From: a virus
Length of the DNA: 26,802 nucleotides
Direction: 5' to 3' (one strand)
Virus record (IMG/VR): IMGVR_UViG_3300020185_001490
Span: 1 to 26,802 of that record
In this document: one piece after another, positions 4,741 through 16,541 of the stretch
How the letters are laid out: every line of letters begins with the position of its first letter
How positions within the stretch are numbered: position 1 is the stretch's first letter
Notes under the pieces: model-generated
The model's input: the letters and a program-made list of their open reading frames with translations, nothing else
What the model was told of the DNA's origin: nothing
The model's database searches: none
Made by a program: the position numbers and the translations under genes

Positions 4741-5145
4741 ATGGTAAATACTATTGTGAAAACACAAACACCAGCAGAATTCTTCATTAAACTATCTGAA
4801 ACTCACCCGTTTATAACGGTTGTCCAGTATGCTGGACAGGATTATGTAGGCATTGTTCAGAACCGTGATGATCTAGTTACAACTATCTATGACTATGGTG
4901 CTATTGCTGATTCACAATTAAAAGAAAAATTCTTAGAGTTAGGTGATGTGTGGTGGTGGGAAAGTAATCGTCAAATCCCTATTCATTTGTTTCTAAAGCA
5001 AGAGTGGATACTTTTCAAACCGTTCTTAAGAACATTCAACAACAAGTCACTTACGTTATTACACGGACCTATTGTCAGTATGACTGACTTTCAGAAGAAA
5101 AGAGTTAAGAGGAAGACGATAACGCTTGTGAAGCGATCTTATTAG
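4741..5145 (+). CDS. Uncharacterised phage protein on the opposite strand, 134 aa
   Basis: One of only two convincing plus-strand genes. The soluble protein is rich in Trp and aromatics (LGDVWWWESNRQIPIHLFLK at about 66-85) and ends in a strongly basic tail (KKRVKRKTITLVKRSY). This resembles, from memory, short conserved proteins of marine T4-like phages; I know of no function. No convincing Shine-Dalgarno lies before the ATG at 4741; an in-frame GTG at 4756 is an alternative. Its last 41 bp overlap the 3' end of the deformylase gene on the other strand, so the two transcripts converge tail to tail. The sensible composition and strand switch favour a real gene; the function is unknown. Confidence 0.65.
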   Translation: MVNTIVKTQTPAEFFIKLSETHPFITVVQYAGQDYVGIVQNRDDLVTTIYDYGAIADSQLKEKFLELGDVWWWESNRQIPIHLFLKQEWILFKPFLRTFNNKSLTLLHGPIVSMTDFQKKRVKRKTITLVKRSY

Positions 5146-5659
5146 CAAGTTTCTGTTTTAATCTTACTGCCTTTGCTCTACGTTTTTTAGCAAGACTCAA
5201 ACTTAATTCACCACAACGTTCATCAAACGTTACTCCAAGCAAATGATCATATTCATGTAAGAACACTCTTGCTTTAAGCCCTTCTAGTTTTTGTTTGTTG
5301 ACCCACTCTCCAGTTGATACTTGGTATGATACTAATGCTTCAGGATTACGTTTAACATGTAACCACAAGTTAGGAAAACTCAAGCAACCTTCTAAGTAAA
5401 TTTCCTTGTCACCCATGAGTTCGTCAATCTTTGGATTGATAACAGCAATCAAATTCTCATCTGTGCCCATGATGAATATGTTTTTCATTACTCCACATTG
5501 TGGTGCGGCTAAGCCTATTCCCTGTGTAGCAGGGTTGAGCATAATCTTTGTCATTGCAGTAATTAATTCAGTTGGATCACCATCTGCTTTAAAGTTCCAA
5601 TCTTCGCACTGTTGTTTTAACAGAGGATTACTTTCTGTTATTAGTTTTAGGTCTTCCAT
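5105..5659 (-). CDS. def: Peptide deformylase
   Basis: Removes the N-terminal formyl group from nascent proteins; a metalloenzyme. All three family motifs are intact: GIGLAAPQ (47-54), EGCLSFP (90-96, metal-ligand Cys92) and HEYDHLLG (135-142, ligands His135 and His139, catalytic Glu136). At 184 residues it is as long as bacterial enzymes and carries a basic Lys/Arg/Ala C-terminal tail that viral deformylases often lack. The ATG (5657-5659) overlaps the TAA stop of the upstream gene (TAATG), so translation is coupled. Marine phages are known to carry def; those characterised act on host photosynthetic or other abundant proteins. The target here is unknown. Confidence 0.95.
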   Translation of the reverse strand: MEDLKLITESNPLLKQQCEDWNFKADGDPTELITAMTKIMLNPATQGIGLAAPQCGVMKNIFIMGTDENLIAVINPKIDELMGDKEIYLEGCLSFPNLWLHVKRNPEALVSYQVSTGEWVNKQKLEGLKARVFLHEYDHLLGVTFDERCGELSLSLAKKRRAKAVRLKQKLANKIASQALSSSS

Positions 5660-6499: not shown

Positions 6500-7041
6500 A
6501 CTTGAATCCCTGCTTCTATTAATTTTTTATATCCTCTTTGCACAACGATTGCTTGATGCTCTGCATCTTCTACAGCCTTGTGTGATGTTACTGCGGCTCC
6601 GTCTTTAAGTGAGACATTAGTTAGATCATAGATTGTTCTACAATCTCTTACTGACCAGAAACGCCATGGATTAGACATGCCTAACTGAGTGAAAGCATTT
6701 TCAGCGATAACAACATCAAAAATAGAACCATTAGCCCAAATTGCTCTGCGGTTCCAACAAAATTTGTAGAGTTGATCCATAGCATCTTTAAATGATACTC
6801 TACCCTGGTCGCCCATTGCTTCATTTATTGCATCCTCTGATTGTTTGCCCCACCACTCTAAAGTTTCAGGGTCAATGTGTCTATCAAACTCTTCTGTTTG
6901 TTCATCTATTGTGGGTCTGATTTCTAATCGTTCTACAACACCACTGCCTTTAGGGTCGAATCGTACTGCTCCAATTGTTAATATGACACAGTTAGGTTGA
7001 GTACTCAACGTCTCCATATCTATCATCACATCATTTGCCAT
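6496..7041 (-). CDS. dexA: DnaQ-fold 3'-5' exonuclease, T4 DexA-like
   Basis: Predicted DEDDh exonuclease that degrades ssDNA or RNA 3' ends with two metal ions. ExoI is MIDMETL (Asp8, Glu10), ExoII is NGSIFD (Asn104, Asp109) and ExoIII is HKAVEDA (His154, Asp159). The LEWWGKQSEDA segment (61-71) and the FWSVRDCRT segment (128-136) match features of T4 DexA and related Rv2179c-like nucleases. It has 181 residues against 227 in T4. The ATG at 7039-7041 has GGAG 6 nt upstream, inside the end of the radical SAM gene, which it overlaps by 11 bp. Its TGA stop overlaps the TTG start of the DnaE-like gene, so an exonuclease and a polymerase-like protein are translationally linked. Confidence 0.85.
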   Translation of the reverse strand: MANDVMIDMETLSTQPNCVILTIGAVRFDPKGSGVVERLEIRPTIDEQTEEFDRHIDPETLEWWGKQSEDAINEAMGDQGRVSFKDAMDQLYKFCWNRRAIWANGSIFDVVIAENAFTQLGMSNPWRFWSVRDCRTIYDLTNVSLKDGAAVTSHKAVEDAEHQAIVVQRGYKKLIEAGIQV

Positions 7042-8944
7042 TACTACTCCACACGTTATCTTTTAATTTTACTTCTTGTATTATATCACTTCTGAGGTAA
7101 TTAATCAACAGTATTGATCGCTTTTTGGGTAAATGCAAGGGCATTGTTGAATGTAATAAACGAGTATTGTAAAACAAAATCGATCCTTTAGGCATGTCAT
7201 ATTGTTCTGCATGTAACTTGAAGTATTCATCATGTACACCCTCATAACAGGCTTGTATGTCCCAATCTGATTGATGACTATAAGGTATAACTCCAGTTGC
7301 TCCTGTGTCTTTATCTAAGTCATCCAGAGGAATAATAACTTGTACACCATAGACATCATTGTCACTTCTCATATTGTACTTTGGAAATCTATGTGGGGTA
7401 TCTATATGAGGACCGCACCATCGACTGGGTCCATTGATAGTCACAATGTCACTTGCATAAAATTCACAGTCTGGTAAGTGTACTTTTATCTCAGGGTAGA
7501 TGATGTCATGTATTGCTTTGACTTCTTTCCAATCATCAGTAAGTTGTGACCACCATACAGCGATACCCTTAGACTTTAGTTTTTCACAATCTTTGCCTTC
7601 TGCATATTGCTTTTTATGTGTTGACACTCTGACAGGATAGAGTTCATCTTTTCTGTCGTTGATATTGTCTATAATTTCAGTAGGAATGATATCACGTACC
7701 ATGTCAAACCCTTTACCTTCATGTTGTATTTCACTGTTTACACTTCTAAACATATTGTTTTTTAGTTCCTCCGCTAGTTCCGGAATATAATTATTTAAGT
7801 CTCTGTTTCTGTACTCATCTGATCCTGTTATTAATTGATGTAGATTTCTAATTGTCCACACACTAACAGATTGTGGCTCGACAAGCCATGCATGTAAGAT
7901 ATCAAGTTGATCTACATTAAATGTAGCAATCTTAGATTTTAATTGTTCTACTGCTTCGATGGCTTGTTGTCTATATTCAAGTGAAACAACATTAGTCTTA
8001 CACCAAACAGGTTCTGTTACTCTGTTTAAAAATATTCCAGGACGTACATCACGTGGACAACCATATTCCTCACATAAATCGCTCCACCATTCAATTAGTT
8101 TGGGTGACTGTATAATATTGAATATACTAACAGTATGACTTAAGTTTAAACTGTATCTTTCAGGTTCCTTTTTCTGTAAGTCAAATAACTTTCGTGTATT
8201 CTTTTCTATCTTATCCCATTTGAATGGATAACGTATGTAATCGTTTACCTTGCCATAGCCATCGATTGATAAACTGATATGCACTCCTTTAAAGTGCGAC
8301 CAAACGTCAATGAGGTCTTGTGTGATAGAAGTTAGATTAGTCACATATGATAATATTATGTTCTTTGCTCTATCTCCTTCAATCAATTGCTTACAGAACA
8401 GTTCATGTTCTTCCATGATAGTAGGTTCGCCACCAACAAATGCAATACGTTTTAAATTTGGAAATAAAGTATAGATATCAAGTGTCTGATCTTTTGTTAT
8501 GTTTATTTTTAAATGGTTATCTTCTTCAGATTCGATCTTCCATATGGTATTATATTCCTTTCCCCATTGGTCAGAGGAATAAGGATTACATGTAATACAT
8601 TTTGAGTTACATTTGTTACTAAAGGTTAAATCTAAGAAGTGAACATCATTAGGATCAACCTCAATGTTCATAGGAATATCATAGTCTTGTAAAGCAACAT
8701 TCCATATAGTACGCATAGACGTGCCTGATACTTTTTCAGAGTCTAAACAGTTTTTACAATCACTAGGCCAGTCGCCTTTTTTAAGTTGTTTTCTTATCTC
8801 AATAAGATTGTTATGATTTAAATTATCTGCATATGGTTTTTTTTCTACACCACCTGTATTTACAAGATTACAACAAGACTTATACCCGCCACCATCTATT
8901 GAGGCTGAGCCAAATGCCAAAGCACAATAGATAGGATCTTTCAT
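7031..8944 (-). CDS. Radical SAM protein fused to 2OG-Fe(II) dioxygenase-like domain
   Basis: A 637-residue two-domain protein. Residues 1-395 are a radical SAM enzyme: CNSKCITC (112-119) is the CX3CX2C motif that binds the 4Fe-4S cluster, and FVGGEP (169-174) binds SAM. Upstream Cys24/Cys25 and Cys63-x2-Cys66 (WPSDCKNC) look like a twitch/auxiliary-cluster region common in phage radical SAM proteins. Residues 410-637 look like a phytanoyl-CoA-dioxygenase-type domain: HID (His513, Asp515), distal His598 in RLLHSTMPLH, and Arg609 for 2-oxoglutarate. The start at 8944 is preferred over an in-frame codon at 8965: it overlaps the upstream TGA as ATGA and has GAGGTG 5-7 nt upstream. Possible roles are peptide or small-molecule modification; the substrate is unknown. 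Confidence 0.82.
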   Translation of the reverse strand: MKDPIYCALAFGSASIDGGGYKSCCNLVNTGGVEKKPYADNLNHNNLIEIRKQLKKGDWPSDCKNCLDSEKVSGTSMRTIWNVALQDYDIPMNIEVDPNDVHFLDLTFSNKCNSKCITCNPYSSDQWGKEYNTIWKIESEEDNHLKINITKDQTLDIYTLFPNLKRIAFVGGEPTIMEEHELFCKQLIEGDRAKNIILSYVTNLTSITQDLIDVWSHFKGVHISLSIDGYGKVNDYIRYPFKWDKIEKNTRKLFDLQKKEPERYSLNLSHTVSIFNIIQSPKLIEWWSDLCEEYGCPRDVRPGIFLNRVTEPVWCKTNVVSLEYRQQAIEAVEQLKSKIATFNVDQLDILHAWLVEPQSVSVWTIRNLHQLITGSDEYRNRDLNNYIPELAEELKNNMFRSVNSEIQHEGKGFDMVRDIIPTEIIDNINDRKDELYPVRVSTHKKQYAEGKDCEKLKSKGIAVWWSQLTDDWKEVKAIHDIIYPEIKVHLPDCEFYASDIVTINGPSRWCGPHIDTPHRFPKYNMRSDNDVYGVQVIIPLDDLDKDTGATGVIPYSHQSDWDIQACYEGVHDEYFKLHAEQYDMPKGSILFYNTRLLHSTMPLHLPKKRSILLINYLRSDIIQEVKLKDNVWSSNGK

Positions 8945-9327
8945 CGCCACCTCGTTTCTAACCACATACGTTCTTTATCTGTGGCTATATAGATTCTTTT
9001 TTGTCTGTGGTCTTCTTCATTAGACCAACACCAATGTTCGTTGAGTTGATTGTGTGTACTGTCATTATATTGTGCTAGGCTTACGTGGTGAGAGAGTTCA
9101 TGTATTCTGTCATAATCTTTTAAATCACAACTAGGTCCCCATGTATCCCAACACCAGTCACGTAATTGATTAAACTTAATAATCTTTGCTAAATCTGATT
9201 GTGCCATTGGCCTGGGAGTGAAACGTTCATACTGTGGTTTGATAATAGTAGTACACATCCATGTGAACATCTCATTCCCTTTAAATCGTCCATCTAACTT
9301 GTGAAACTGTAAATCTAACTCTTTCAT
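8941..9327 (-). CDS. Uncharacterised Trp/His-rich protein, 128 aa
   Basis: A soluble protein unusually rich in Trp and His, with clusters such as RDWCWDTWGPSC (56-67) and NEHWCWSNEEDHRQ (95-108). Four Cys and several His could bind metal, but there is no recognisable motif. The ATG at 9325-9327 overlaps the TAA stop of the upstream gene (TAATG), and its TGA overlaps the ATG of the radical SAM gene, so it is coupled on both sides. A partner or substrate role for the radical SAM enzyme is suggested only by this coupling. I do not recognise the family. Confidence 0.7.
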   Translation of the reverse strand: MKELDLQFHKLDGRFKGNEMFTWMCTTIIKPQYERFTPRPMAQSDLAKIIKFNQLRDWCWDTWGPSCDLKDYDRIHELSHHVSLAQYNDSTHNQLNEHWCWSNEEDHRQKRIYIATDKERMWLETRWR

Positions 9328-11271: not shown

Positions 11272-12729
11272 TCAATATTTTAATTTTTCTATTGCAAACG
11301 GATAGTTTGCTTCTTTGTAAAATGCCTTACGAGAAGTTAAATGTCGTTTAGCAAATCTGCATGAACTTGTTAAGTCCCAGATTTGAACAAAGTCTTTATC
11401 GTCTGCTTTACGAATGCCACGACCGATAGACTGTATGACACGAACAAAACTTTTACCTGGTTCAATGAGTACAAGATTAAAAATCCTAGGAATGTTAATA
11501 CCAGTACTAGCCACGCCATAAGTAGCAATGATAACTTTATTAGTAGCAGTGGATACCTCATCATATTCTTCTTTTCTGTCATTGACTTTCATGCCTCCTG
11601 ATACAAATACTGCATCATCTAGTCGTTCTACAAGTGCATGTCCTGCATTGATACGATCAACCAAGACAAGTGTATTACCTGTTTCTTTTATTTTATCTAC
11701 TAACTCTGCCAACTTATCTAATCGTTTAGAATCTGAGAGTAAGTGTTTTAGTTCTGCTTGATAATTACTAAACTCTTGGTCGTCTTGTAATTGTACAATG
11801 TTCACATGACATTTACTTAAGACACCTTGATCTTGTAATTCTTTTGCAGATAGTTTATTAGTGACTGGACCTAAACTTACTTCCAATGCCATTCTTTCAT
11901 ATTCTGCTTTGGGAACAGTACCAGTCAGTCCCCATCGTATGGGAACATGTGACATGACGCCTGTTAACAGTGCCTTCAATGCATCTGCTTTAGCCATGTG
12001 TACTTCATCTACCATTACGCAAACAACACCTTCAATGAATTCATCGATAGTGCAGTCGGCCTCTCCTCTCTTGGTATTTTTTAAAAGGATGTTCAAGGAT
12101 TGCCATGTGCAAATTGTATGTTGCTTAAAGTATTCTTTACGATCACCGTAATAAACACCAACATCTAATCCTAGATTTATGTAATCTTCTTCGGTTTGTG
12201 TGACGAGACTTTTGTTAGGAACGATAACGATACTACGACCATAGAACTCTATGCTCTTACTCAGAGCGGCTGTCATAATCGTTTTACCTGCCCCTGTAGC
12301 GACCTCTTGTATCGACTGAGGGTTTGCTAAGAACTGATTGATAACTTCTACTTGATAGTCTCTCAGTTCGATGGATTGTCCTTCGCAGACATGTCCTGTG
12401 GGCCACTTAACATCTTCAAATGTGTTAGTGGTAATTTCATCAAAATCAAATGTGTTATTGTATTCCCTCATATCTTCTAACTCAATCGTGTAATTGAGTT
12501 CTTCCAAGATAGGAATAATTTGAGGTAATAAATTAATAAATGTGGAACCAGCAAGGCTACAATAACTAACCTTGCCGTTCCATCTACCTAGTTTAACACT
12601 GGGCATGTAACGTGCACCAGGAACCTCATACTCAAACTTTTTCATCAGTGCCCTACGAGCATCTAATTCAAGTCCGGCAATCTTTAGATTGACTTCATCT
12701 TTAATTTGTAGTGTTGCAGTTCCTGGCAT
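11272..12729 (-). CDS. uvsW: UvsW-type RNA-DNA and DNA-DNA helicase
   Basis: Superfamily 2 helicase that unwinds R-loops and branched DNA, switching T4-like phages from origin- to recombination-dependent replication. It has 485 residues (T4 502). The N-terminal domain (1-110) carries the UvsW-like KLGRWNGKVS segment (46-55). Then come Q-motif-like LRDYQ (122-126), Walker A ATGAGKT (144-150), DEVH (241-244), LTGT (268-271) and the arginine-finger motif QSIGRGIR (433-440). The ATG at 12727-12729 is 4 bp from the end of the TonB receptor gene and lacks a clear ribosome binding site, so it depends on readthrough translation. Identification is secure. Confidence 0.94.
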   Translation of the reverse strand: MPGTATLQIKDEVNLKIAGLELDARRALMKKFEYEVPGARYMPSVKLGRWNGKVSYCSLAGSTFINLLPQIIPILEELNYTIELEDMREYNNTFDFDEITTNTFEDVKWPTGHVCEGQSIELRDYQVEVINQFLANPQSIQEVATGAGKTIMTAALSKSIEFYGRSIVIVPNKSLVTQTEEDYINLGLDVGVYYGDRKEYFKQHTICTWQSLNILLKNTKRGEADCTIDEFIEGVVCVMVDEVHMAKADALKALLTGVMSHVPIRWGLTGTVPKAEYERMALEVSLGPVTNKLSAKELQDQGVLSKCHVNIVQLQDDQEFSNYQAELKHLLSDSKRLDKLAELVDKIKETGNTLVLVDRINAGHALVERLDDAVFVSGGMKVNDRKEEYDEVSTATNKVIIATYGVASTGINIPRIFNLVLIEPGKSFVRVIQSIGRGIRKADDKDFVQIWDLTSSCRFAKRHLTSRKAFYKEANYPFAIEKLKY

Positions 12730-12733
12730 TCGA

Positions 12734-14287
12734 TTACGGCCTGTATTGTAGTGTTATAAAGAATTCAATACCACCTGAGTTATATCCAGGGTTGAATTCA
12801 AATCTTCTATCTAGTATATCTCTTACTGTAGCAGATAGCAAGTAGTTAGGTGCAATTTCTGATTCGATCTTGTAATCGATTGAACTTACATCATCAAGCA
12901 TTTCTGTTCCATCATACGGTCCAGGCTTTCTATCGAATAGTCCAGTGTATGTGAATGACAATACATAGTTGTCTACATAAGATACAGATGATATGATTGC
13001 TTTATACTTTGCAACTCTAGGTTGATCTGAGTTAGTATAGCCAAACTCATAACCAAAGTCTGTGTCCATCCAATCAACACCTTTTGTTCCAGTCAGTCTC
13101 ACACCTTCAGTATCATATTTGCCAGTGTTGACAAACTGTGATGATGCAAAACTATAGTCGATACCTTCTGAAAATTTGTATTTAAATACAGTTATATTTT
13201 TATAACCAAATTCAATACCTGTTGCTTCCTCAGGGTCTAGTCCAGGATTAGGTGCAGTCCATGCATCACCATTTAACTCATATAGAGTTGGGTTACGATA
13301 TGATGTACCGAAACTTGAAAAGAAATCTCCCTTTGATGATCCAATACGATAAACAAATGCATCTTCACTTAAACGTAGACCTATGTTAATAGGCTCGTAG
13401 TTCAGCAATGCATACACAGAGATAGAGTCTTGTGACATACCTTCATACTTTTCATATTCAACTGTTGCACCATAGAGATTGTTACCAACTGTGTGCCTTG
13501 TATCTACAAATGCTCTTTCAGCATCTGAAGAATAAGTTTCTACGCCTTCAGTTTTATATTTTGCATCGTTAAAAGAATAACCAAACGTGTAGTTATCATT
13601 TCTTACTGATAAACTTCCTTTTGAACCTAACTGAGAACAATCATTTGATTGTGAGAAACTTGCGGTATAACAGTTGTCATAGTCATAGTCATATGATGTT
13701 GCTGAAATGTTCGTAGTGAACTCGCCTGTATCAAATTGACCTCTAGCAGTCATGTTTGTGTAGCCGTCAGTCTCATCATTGTCTGATCTAACACTATCAT
13801 TGTTAACATCAAAGTATGTAAAGTTTAAACCTTTACCTGTGTGTGTAACGAATGTATGTTGAGGTCCTAGTCTTAAAGTAGATTGATCTTTTGAAAGATC
13901 GTCTTTAATAAAGACTGTTCCACCTAAACTACCTGAACCATATAGTACACTGTTGACTCCGTTAACAACTTTAATTGTTTCGTTTCCTGTTGCAAAATCA
14001 TGTCCAAAGTCATACCATCCAGAGCCTGCATCATTTGCTGGAACTCCATTTCTGTATACACTTGTATGTACTGTTTGTGTTCCTCTTTCTGTGTAACCAG
14101 AAAAAGAACCATAACCACCTGCTTGAGTTGCTTCGGGTATAATTGTTTCTAATATATTAACGTCAGTCGAAGGGTCCGACTCTGCTTCATATGTTGTAGT
14201 TCCTACTACAACGATTTCTTCTATTTCTTGTGCATATACTGCTGTTGTTAAACACAACGATAATGCCAATGCTATTTTATTTTTCAT
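12734..14287 (-). CDS. TonB-dependent outer membrane receptor
   Basis: A 517-residue protein with a clear signal peptide (about 1-19, cleavage after AVYA). A TonB-box-like IEEIVVVG (22-29) follows. The plug is at about 40-127: VYRNGVPANDA (78-88), IKVVNGVNSVLYGSGSLGG (105-123). The rest is beta-strand rich and Tyr/Asp/Ser-rich, as in TonB receptors. The C-terminal part (VRDILDRRFEFNPGYNSG) resembles BtuB-type receptors. It is short: BtuB is about 594 residues mature, so the barrel may have fewer or shorter strands. The ATG overlaps the TGA of the 376-residue gene upstream (ATGA). It would sit in the host outer membrane, taking up a substrate via TonB or altering phage adsorption. The substrate is unknown. 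Confidence 0.88.
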   Translation of the reverse strand: MKNKIALALSLCLTTAVYAQEIEEIVVVGTTTYEAESDPSTDVNILETIIPEATQAGGYGSFSGYTERGTQTVHTSVYRNGVPANDAGSGWYDFGHDFATGNETIKVVNGVNSVLYGSGSLGGTVFIKDDLSKDQSTLRLGPQHTFVTHTGKGLNFTYFDVNNDSVRSDNDETDGYTNMTARGQFDTGEFTTNISATSYDYDYDNCYTASFSQSNDCSQLGSKGSLSVRNDNYTFGYSFNDAKYKTEGVETYSSDAERAFVDTRHTVGNNLYGATVEYEKYEGMSQDSISVYALLNYEPINIGLRLSEDAFVYRIGSSKGDFFSSFGTSYRNPTLYELNGDAWTAPNPGLDPEEATGIEFGYKNITVFKYKFSEGIDYSFASSQFVNTGKYDTEGVRLTGTKGVDWMDTDFGYEFGYTNSDQPRVAKYKAIISSVSYVDNYVLSFTYTGLFDRKPGPYDGTEMLDDVSSIDYKIESEIAPNYLLSATVRDILDRRFEFNPGYNSGGIEFFITLQYRP

Positions 14288-15414
14288 ACTATATCTATAG
14301 GTCTCCTGTTTATAATTTGTATATTTTTTATAGCGCCACCAACAATCTGTGGCTGTTCTTTTGTCGAACTGTATCTCAACAGTACCATCTCTTTAGTGAT
14401 GTCCTTAGCATCGTTTAGTAGGTTAGATTTCCCTCCGTTAATAATTTCAATATCGTTTTCATCAAATACTCTACGTATTTCTTTTGCTATTGTGGTTATG
14501 TCAATTTGTCTATGTCTGACTCTATCCGTTGAATTCTTTAAAGACATTGACTTTATATTATCCAGATTCAAGCCTCTGGTTACTACAACTGTTTTACAGT
14601 CTATTTCTTTTAGCCATGACACAAATTCTTCTAAGTGATCAATGTCTACTTCAGGCGCATATTGTGCAAAGAATTCTAAACGAGGAACCTCGTTTGTTAT
14701 ATTGCTGTCAATTGCAACACCATGATATGCTAAATTAGCAAGAGTCTTTGGCTCTGTATTTAGGTTGACATCTTTAAATATACTGTCAAGTGAGTCATTG
14801 CTTCCAGCAATAGAATACACTCCATCGTTTTCTACAAGTGTAGGATCCCATGTCTGTTTTTCCATTGCTTCTAGTTGTTCTATTACTTCTTTGACTTCGC
14901 CCTGATAGATAGTTTCAAAATACTTAGGCAAGACTTTATATGCTATTTTCAATGCGTGGGTAGATGCTGGTGCTTCATAACGTTTCTTTTCTTTGTTCCA
15001 CTTCCATATTGTATCGTCAGGATAATGATAGTTTTCTAACACCCCAAGCATGATACGTCTAAAGCCATTGATAAAATCCTTTTTAAAAGGAACCTTAAAT
15101 ACCAAAAGGTTTTCTTCTTTATTGTAACTAAGTCTGGCTCGTGTAAACTCAGGAAGACTTGGAATAATTTTTGACTTCCATTCTAAACTATGTAAGTATG
15201 GTTGTTGGAAGCCAGACTGTGATAATTGATGTTGGTATTTTGTTATTAGTCTAGTTAATAGATTGGATTGATTTTCAGTTATGTTTTTTTTCTCATGTAC
15301 AAGTTGCATCATGCTAGACAAAAAAGAATGGTCATAATGACTCAATCGAACATTGCCATGTTGTAACATCCAATAGATAATATGTTCTTTGTTTTGTAAT
15401 TCAATCTGATACAT
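14284..15414 (-). CDS. Uncharacterised phage protein with possible HARP-like segment, 376 aa
   Basis: I take the ATG at 15412-15414 as start; an in-frame GTG at 15429 lies at or above the predicted transcription start. The N-terminal half has a segment LEWKSKIIPSLPEFTRARLS, then FKVPFKKDFINGF, then WKWNKEKKRYEAP, which recalls the HARP/substrate-recognition modules found in front of SF2 helicases. This is a weak, by-eye likeness. The C-terminal half alternates VVVTRGLNL and I-rich strands with charged helices, with no Walker or DExH motif. It lies just upstream of the TonB receptor (ATGA overlap), with UvsW the next gene after that, so it may be a UvsW partner. Function is not established. 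Confidence 0.65.
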   Translation of the reverse strand: MYQIELQNKEHIIYWMLQHGNVRLSHYDHSFLSSMMQLVHEKKNITENQSNLLTRLITKYQHQLSQSGFQQPYLHSLEWKSKIIPSLPEFTRARLSYNKEENLLVFKVPFKKDFINGFRRIMLGVLENYHYPDDTIWKWNKEKKRYEAPASTHALKIAYKVLPKYFETIYQGEVKEVIEQLEAMEKQTWDPTLVENDGVYSIAGSNDSLDSIFKDVNLNTEPKTLANLAYHGVAIDSNITNEVPRLEFFAQYAPEVDIDHLEEFVSWLKEIDCKTVVVTRGLNLDNIKSMSLKNSTDRVRHRQIDITTIAKEIRRVFDENDIEIINGGKSNLLNDAKDITKEMVLLRYSSTKEQPQIVGGAIKNIQIINRRPIDIV

Positions 15415-15420
15415 GTTTTT

Positions 15421-15449
15421 ATTATACACTTCCTATAACTTATTATCAA
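15421..15449 (-). promoter_or_regulatory. Sigma-70-type promoter, leaderless geometry
   Basis: TTGATA (15444-15449), 17-bp spacer and TATAAT (15421-15426). The ATG at 15414 lies 6 nt after the -10 box. TTACCA precedes the -35 by a few bases, as at 11229-11257. Located immediately after the terminator of the AAA+ ATPase gene, so it starts a new transcription unit (376-residue protein, TonB receptor, uvsW). Confidence 0.7.
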
Positions 15450-15506: not shown

Positions 15507-16541
15507 TTAAACTCTACGCATACACGTTGATTCTGCTAACATCTTCCAGTTGTCATTCTTTTGGATCTTAAACAAGTCAGCAATCTTAAGAGCCATTCTC
15601 ATTGAGACTTCTCTTAACTTGTGTGCGTTCTCTTCCATGAAAGCAAATATCAAGTCGCCTTCACCATTCTCAAAATTGTAGTCACCGAACAATCCATCTG
15701 TACAGTCCCTATCAACTTGCTTGATTCGTAACATCTTGTCACGGTCATTGTCGATAGTAAGATCCAAGAAGTGACACCTAGACTGTAAAGCCTCTAAGTG
15801 ATCTTGTAACTTCTTAGACTTGATGTTTTCAAACTTCAAGTTAGTAATAAAGATTGCACTACCTTTGAACTCAAATGAGTTTGGAATGCCTTCTCTGTTT
15901 AACAGACTTGAGTCTGAGTTCCAACAAATCTTCCTAGACTTGCCTGAGTCAAGTGCCGCCTTGAGAATGTTAAGGGCAAGATCGTCAGCAAATACAGAGT
16001 CACAATCGTCAAACACTAAAACGTTTTTAGCATCTGAGTACTTGTAAAGAACTGCGTATAAGCCTAGAGCAGTCATTGCACCTTTGACAACCTCGTAACG
16101 AGTCCTGCTGTTAGTCAGTTGATCGAACAATGAAGCCTTCTCCATTTGTTGCTCAACACCGTAAGACTTGCCTACGCCTGGAGGGCCACTTACAATCATT
16201 GCTCTAATATCGCCACCGATTGTAGCCTTAGCCATATCGTCTAAGATATCAAATCTAGTTTTGATTCTGTCCATTGCATCAGCATCAGACTCTACTACAG
16301 CAGGTTGAAAAGCAATTGTTGAATCACCCATGATAGGATTCTCCGTTCCCCATTGAACATCATTGATGTTGTTTAATTGAATTTTTACATTCGCAATGTT
16401 AAACTGAGGAAATTGTCCCTCGTTTTTAACAGTGATATATCCACCACGTTTGCCTTCTGTGAAGCCTTTAACGAGAGTGAATTGTTGATCAACTACAGGT
16501 TGGTTCCTGTAAGTTCCGTATTTTACATTAATTGTAGACAT
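15507..16541 (-). CDS. AAA+ ATPase, phage type, function unassigned
   Basis: A 344-residue protein. About 100 N-terminal residues have no known motif. Then come Walker A GPPGVGKS (119-126), Walker B VLVFDDCD (174-181), a sensor-1-like ITNLKF and a possible sensor-2 helix (LREVSMRMALKIADL). It is not a convincing clamp-loader gp44: the N-terminal domain, the FDDCD Walker B and the lack of an SRC arginine-finger motif differ. It resembles stand-alone phage AAA+ proteins of unknown role. It has two sigma-70 promoters upstream, a GAGGT ribosome binding site 8 nt before the ATG and its own terminator, so it is a strongly expressed single-gene unit, probably early. Confidence 0.8.
   Translation of the reverse strand: MSTINVKYGTYRNQPVVDQQFTLVKGFTEGKRGGYITVKNEGQFPQFNIANVKIQLNNINDVQWGTENPIMGDSTIAFQPAVVESDADAMDRIKTRFDILDDMAKATIGGDIRAMIVSGPPGVGKSYGVEQQMEKASLFDQLTNSRTRYEVVKGAMTALGLYAVLYKYSDAKNVLVFDDCDSVFADDLALNILKAALDSGKSRKICWNSDSSLLNREGIPNSFEFKGSAIFITNLKFENIKSKKLQDHLEALQSRCHFLDLTIDNDRDKMLRIKQVDRDCTDGLFGDYNFENGEGDLIFAFMEENAHKLREVSMRMALKIADLFKIQKNDNWKMLAESTCMRRV

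Follow-up and report, generated by a model that had tools for sequence, protein, structure and literature searches.

TonB-dependent receptors are usually described as phage targets and not as phage cargo, and vitamin B12 limits many microbes. In the receptor BtuB, two calcium sites occupy a cage of five aspartates and B12 is bound by calcium-ordered loops; the affinity for B12 falls 1000-fold at sub-saturating calcium (PMC7360065). BtuB serves several phages as a receptor, among them the T5-like phages phiR2-01, EPS7, SPC35 and BF23, in whose genomes lipoproteins that block the receptor may be encoded (PMC8624392). These blockers are phage genes acting at a TonB-dependent receptor, in the form of small lipoproteins which block the receptor of the host and are not receptors themselves. 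TonB-dependent receptors encoded by phages have been annotated in the pelagiphage Polarivirus skadi, where the gene is flanked by tail tube genes on one side and the major capsid gene on the other and was taken to hint at the receptor used for adsorption (PMC10504331), and in the marine megaphage Mar_Mega_1, where a SusC-type receptor was proposed to be a nutrient-uptake gene (PMC9723777). The first-pass annotation of the DNA described here knew of no characterised phage example. We found none that has been characterised, but the annotations just cited mean that the presence of such genes in phages had already been noticed.

The window, by which we mean the whole stretch of DNA analysed, comprises 26,802 nt (positions 1 to 26,802 of the IMG/VR record IMGVR_UViG_3300020185_001490). 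One of its genes encodes a TonB-dependent receptor, which is very likely a phage-borne receptor of the BtuB type (Table 1). The Mar_Mega_1 gene, from a large marine phage, encodes a receptor of this superfamily too, but one of the SusC class; BFVD entry A0A8D9FQQ5, a TonB-dependent receptor SusC of an uncultured marine phage, has 805 aa and is 11% identical in a structural alignment. Unlike the T5-like blockers, the protein encoded here is itself predicted to be a plug-filled barrel.

Table 1. The receptor gene, its predicted parts and the bordering genes, in window coordinates
Feature	Coordinates	Strand	Evidence
uvsW-like helicase, downstream neighbour, 4-bp gap	11272..12729	minus	phrog_16, 4.6e-82
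TonB-dependent receptor, very likely phage BtuB-type, 517 aa	12734..14287	minus	PF07715, TIGR01779, fold model, Foldseek
Signal peptide, residues 1-19, MKNKIALALSLCLTTAVYA	14231..14287	minus	judged by eye, no predictor
Ton-box-type segment QEIEEIVVVG, residues 20-29	14201..14230	minus	alignment
Plug domain, about residues 23-132	13892..14221	minus	Pfam and alignment with BtuB
22-strand beta barrel, residues 135-515	12743..13885	minus	AlphaFold2 model, DSSP strands
Loops 2 and 3 plus intervening strands, residues 165-217, SVRSDNDETDGY ... YDYDYDNCYTASFSQSNDC	13637..13795	minus	alignments, conservation
381-aa gene, no known function, ATGA overlap with receptor	14284..15429	minus	comparison of contigs
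AAA-ATPase-like gene, other border of slot	15507..16541	minus	phrog_1250

The first-pass annotation had described a signal peptide, a TonB-box-like sequence and a plug in a single intact frame, with BtuB-like features towards the C-terminus, and had placed this frame between an ATGA overlap upstream and uvsW 4 bp downstream. All of these points held, on the minus strand, the annotation having given none. The translated frame contains zero internal stops, it begins within the ATGA overlap, and the spacing to uvsW reads TAA-TCGA-ATG. A hydrophobic leader was likewise found in the alignment of the other members of the receptor family, and residues E23 and E24 of the Ton-box segment EIEEIVVVG are invariant among the 44 members aligned. 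The Pfam Plug model PF07715 matched residues 43-124 with E=3e-9 (37.8 bits against a cut-off of 23.9), and it was above its cut-off in 17/17 related contigs. The match enters the profile at position 25 of 107, indicating that the N-terminal part of the plug is shortened. The plug was the only Pfam match; the Pfam barrel model PF00593 did not match the window receptor. The BtuB-like end of the protein was recognised by the NCBIfam TonB-B12 model TIGR01779 (E=2.6e-16), the best stretch being residues 322-516, equivalent to positions 403-613 of the 614 in the profile. This model matched 40 of the 44 family members, while its equivalog cut-off was missed by the window receptor (59.3 vs 599.7 bits).

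A structure prediction using the 44-member alignment as input yielded a plug together with a barrel of exactly 22 strands (pLDDT 80, pTM 0.81), with low confidence at the Ton box and in parts of the plug; failure to obtain a plug-filled barrel had been named beforehand as a possible refutation. When the model was compared with the PDB by Foldseek, the 12 best matches were all E. coli BtuB (top match 2gsk, E 4.8e-21), followed by three Bacteroides B12 transporters and then by siderophore and heme receptors. A phmmer search of the PDB with the single window protein returned no matches; with the receptor-family profile, BtuB was found among PDB sequences at about 1e-15, and the sole other match was PhuR at 6e-4. 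In a Klebsiella genome, only the btuB locus passed E<=0.001 with the same profile. Representative genomes were also scanned with the patterns S[YF]R[NK][PA][TN]LY[EQ] and Y[DE]YDYDN, and the six relatives confirmed were all enterobacterial BtuB-type proteins, at 21% identity. BtuB is the nearest solved and the nearest cellular kin of the phage receptor.

With E. coli BtuB (PDB 2gsk/1nqh; TIGR01779) the phage protein shares the plug and 22-strand barrel, the Ton box, a C-terminal barrel region alignable over about 195 residues, and, as far as they could be aligned, the positions of the calcium cage in loops 2 and 3. It differs in being about 100 residues shorter, which bears out the earlier remark that it is short for such a receptor, and its identity to BtuB-type proteins is just 18-26%. 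The plug has about 20 residues fewer before the conserved RG, with ERGTQT at offset 66 and the BtuB equivalent at 87. The same shortening is present in the other aligned family members, and such a trimmed plug would represent a natural minimal TonB-dependent transporter. Further differences are the phage-specific loop signature YDYDYDNC...SNDC, the location of the gene in a phage replication cluster, and the lack of a riboswitch, none having been found in the window.

Riboswitches are a feature of the cellular relatives. We ran the receptor-family profile on 399 Pseudomonadota genomes, and a cobalamin or AdoCbl riboswitch stood at the gene start in 13/15 of the best cellular matches, compared to 2/20 of other TonB-dependent receptors from those genomes (Fisher p=1e-5); the 20 controls were high plug-scoring receptors and not a random draw. 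The best cellular match (L114, G414:C5) has 613 aa, a full plug and an RF00174 riboswitch upstream, in all of which it is unlike the phage receptor, but it shares the loop signatures (NTEDDGYEN and AEYDNC...STNDC in the cellular protein, SDNDETDGYTN and YDYDYDNC...QSNDC in the phage family) and gave a profile-profile E of 7.9e-22. The riboswitch-linked relatives tested also missed the TIGR01779 cut-off, with 272-327 bits. Judged from their sequences, these cellular relatives are B12 receptors.

The presumed ligand face is strongly conserved in the family. Residues E172, D174, Y203 and D204 were found in 44/44 members and D216 in 42/44, and they align with D190, D192, Y226, D227 and D238 of Klebsiella BtuB, positions which, with an offset of three, we take to be the calcium ligands of E. 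coli BtuB. The correspondence is partial, comprising four acid positions and one tyrosine; one of the acids is Glu in the phage, the fifth aspartate is unaligned, and the ligand identities rest on the alignment offset. A strict regular expression for the cage motif gave no separation (3/15 BtuB-like vs 2/21 other receptors), being too strict. The two invariant cysteines of the loop region, C206 and C217, could be linked by a disulfide. Overall, conservation is higher in the extracellular loops than in the strands of the barrel (p=8e-5), which is not the pattern of a surface engaged in an arms race. Pairwise dN/dS of the receptor was about 0.17-0.24, and the gene is under purifying selection.

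Receptors of this kind are normally bacterial, and several BtuB-matching records in the phage collection look like bacterial contigs, both of which would speak for an assembly chimera or bacterial contamination of the contig; a host/phage junction at this locus had indeed been flagged in advance as a possible artefact. A scan of viral contigs detected 108 stretches encoding relatives of the receptor, of which 80 were retained. In about 75 of these, the receptor directly precedes uvsW, or the gene order matches as far as the contig extends, with the receptor following the AAA-ATPase-like gene and with uvsX, uvsY-like and gp32 genes close by. The same junctions were present on identical and on diverged contigs from other metagenome assemblies, the GC content of the receptor gene (0.36) is like that of its neighbours, the window as a whole having 0.37, and in a tree with the cellular set the receptors form a clade of phage sequences alone (support 98/100, to be taken with caution in view of the long cellular branches). 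As the uvsW-adjacent synteny persists at only 32-48% receptor identity, we rejected the artefact, which retains hardly any credibility. Gene order on these contigs assigns the receptor gene to the phage, as the first-pass annotation had proposed. Being of a cellular metabolic or transport type and residing on a genuine phage genome, with synteny on about 75 contigs, it qualifies as a phage auxiliary metabolic gene. In three contigs the receptor is located elsewhere (L064, L078 and L079), near baseplate genes in L078.

The replication cluster itself, with uvsX, gp32, a uvsY-like gene and uvsW, is as first described, but the close kinship with T4 implied by calling it T4-like is not. By uvsW and uvsX, the nearest isolates are the jumbo phages Sinorhizobium Phosso, Agrobacterium Atu_ph07, and those of the PA5oct and Rak2 types, and the baseplate protein of L078 indicates jumbo-phage kinship too. 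Going by these genes, the phage is a relative of jumbo myoviruses of the Rak2/PA5oct/Atu_ph07 kind and not close to T4. No isolate record with the receptor was found: two family members compared against 50,697 phage records gave weak matches only, to bacterial BtuB or to unannotated contigs; no Polarivirus was among the matches, the presence of that genome in the collection being unconfirmed. Two further genes on the minus strand of the window may be mentioned: a 644-aa frame at 7031-8965 which fuses a radical-SAM domain to a phytanoyl-CoA dioxygenase-like (PhyH) domain, and a phage peptide deformylase gene at 5105-5659 (PF01327, 3e-31).

What might such a receptor do for a phage? The explanation that we prefer, and consider somewhat probable (roughly 0.6), is a phage-specific outer-membrane transporter of the BtuB type, for which corrinoid import via the TonB of the host is inferred in the absence of ligand, transport or expression data. 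The first-pass annotation had suggested uptake of B12, iron or another nutrient. Among these, vitamin B12 is now favoured by the fold, the profile, the riboswitches of the nearest cellular relatives and the conserved calcium-cage positions, and a corrinoid is on balance the probable substrate, pending ligand data. The receptor would be exported by the host Sec system during infection, inserted into the outer membrane by host BAM, and energised by host TonB-ExbBD; since the Ton box is conserved and a search of 18 contigs revealed no tonB-like gene, the protein presumably relies on the TonB of the host. The calcium-ordered loops would then bind a corrinoid (vitamin B12 or a relative), and corrinoid supply to the infected cell would rise, to the benefit of cobalamin-dependent enzymes of host or phage. 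If this is true, a conserved phage-borne relative of BtuB implies that some phages manage the uptake of a growth-limiting vitamin, and infection by this group of jumbo phages may let the virus draw vitamin B12, where it is scarce, into its host.

The main rival, unlikely in our estimate and not excluded, is superinfection exclusion, whereby a look-alike outer-membrane receptor, or titration of TonB, would shut out colicins and competing phages that depend on BtuB or TonB. The use of BtuB as a receptor by several phages, and the possibility that these carry receptor-blocking lipoproteins (PMC8624392), make this conceivable, but the phage protein, a predicted barrel, is not a small lipoprotein or inner-membrane blocker of a host receptor, although exclusion by another mechanism is still possible. 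The surface of a decoy or competitor should vary, yet the extracellular loops rank with the best conserved regions of the protein; titration of TonB needs no conserved cage on the ligand side, and additional intact receptors could even offer rivals more docking sites. Promoter sequences are among the evidence that we count towards the transporter. In one subclade, a near-perfect sigma70-type promoter, TTGAC(A/T)-16-TATAAT (11-12 of 12 consensus bases), directly precedes the receptor, suggesting early transcription there, for which there are no expression data, and early-type promoters would fit exclusion as well. Sequences matching 11 or more of the 12 consensus bases were found before 52% of clade B receptors vs 19% of other gene starts, but over clade B as a whole promoter strength did not shift significantly (p=0.13), only the one subclade being strong. 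In L056, L057, L061, L062 and L066, the receptor gene is immediately preceded by a near-perfect sigma70-type promoter, and upstream of this lies hairpin-like GC-rich or repeat sequence with a T-run.

Slightly more doubtful still is that the protein, of BtuB ancestry, has changed its substrate and now transports another scarce nutrient, such as siderophore iron, heme, another metal complex or an organic ligand. Its low identity to known BtuB, the phage-specific invariant residues with a possible loop disulfide, weak matches of 27/44 members to the hemoglobin/transferrin/lactoferrin receptor subfamily, and the siderophore and heme receptors among the Foldseek matches would all permit this. Nevertheless, BtuB came first in the comparisons of fold, profile, genome and family model, and cobalamin riboswitches precede most of the best cellular relatives, leaving corrinoid import as the preferred reading.

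Besides the low identity to BtuB and the missed TIGR01779 cut-off, the phage's own enzymes speak against corrinoid import: a need for B12 on their part was considered as an explanation and did not hold up. CobS was looked for and not found. Ribonucleotide reductase was detected in one long relative only, as a class I NrdA/NrdB-type pair, so that the dNTP supply of that relative would not need B12. B12-binding radical-SAM genes occur in 2/15 receptor-bearing vs 2/13 receptor-less relatives and are thus not enriched. Such proteins are encoded on the receptor-bearing contigs L238 (16-1899) and L239 (1-2184).

Two phage clades have retained the receptor, each in the same slot of the replication cluster. 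In receptor-less relatives (uvsW 68-75%), the order is the ATPase, often a gene of the 14284-15429 type, and then uvsW, and the plug domain was absent from 13 long receptor-less contigs (one of 344 kb); L168 could not be counted as receptor-less, its upstream sequence being missing. The 381-aa gene of the window matched nothing in PHROG or Pfam at E<=0.001 and is very fast-evolving (identity of about 36%, against 82-90% for its neighbours); it directly precedes uvsW in receptor-less phages and is absent from the distant receptor-bearing clade. Mapped onto the uvsW tree, the distribution of the receptor requires two changes, the gene being present in the window's clade and in the distant clade and missing between them, and the trees suggest that it arrived twice. 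In the receptor tree, the window's clade is nested in the diversity of the other clade (AU p=0.03 against a topology that keeps the others together). This is compatible with passage of the gene between phages into the same slot, the probable route on this evidence. The wider picture remains tentative, with the odds slightly against it: a jumbo-phage lineage of B12 transporters, in which the plug is trimmed and the calcium-ordered ligand face is fixed, would move between phages into the same replication-cluster slot and raise corrinoid import in infected cells. Finally, the 77-kb viral contig L094 carries at about 7944-8100 a receptor-type leader, FAFMMFMLWASEAKASEIE, which is not followed by a receptor, suggesting a remnant of a lost receptor copy.
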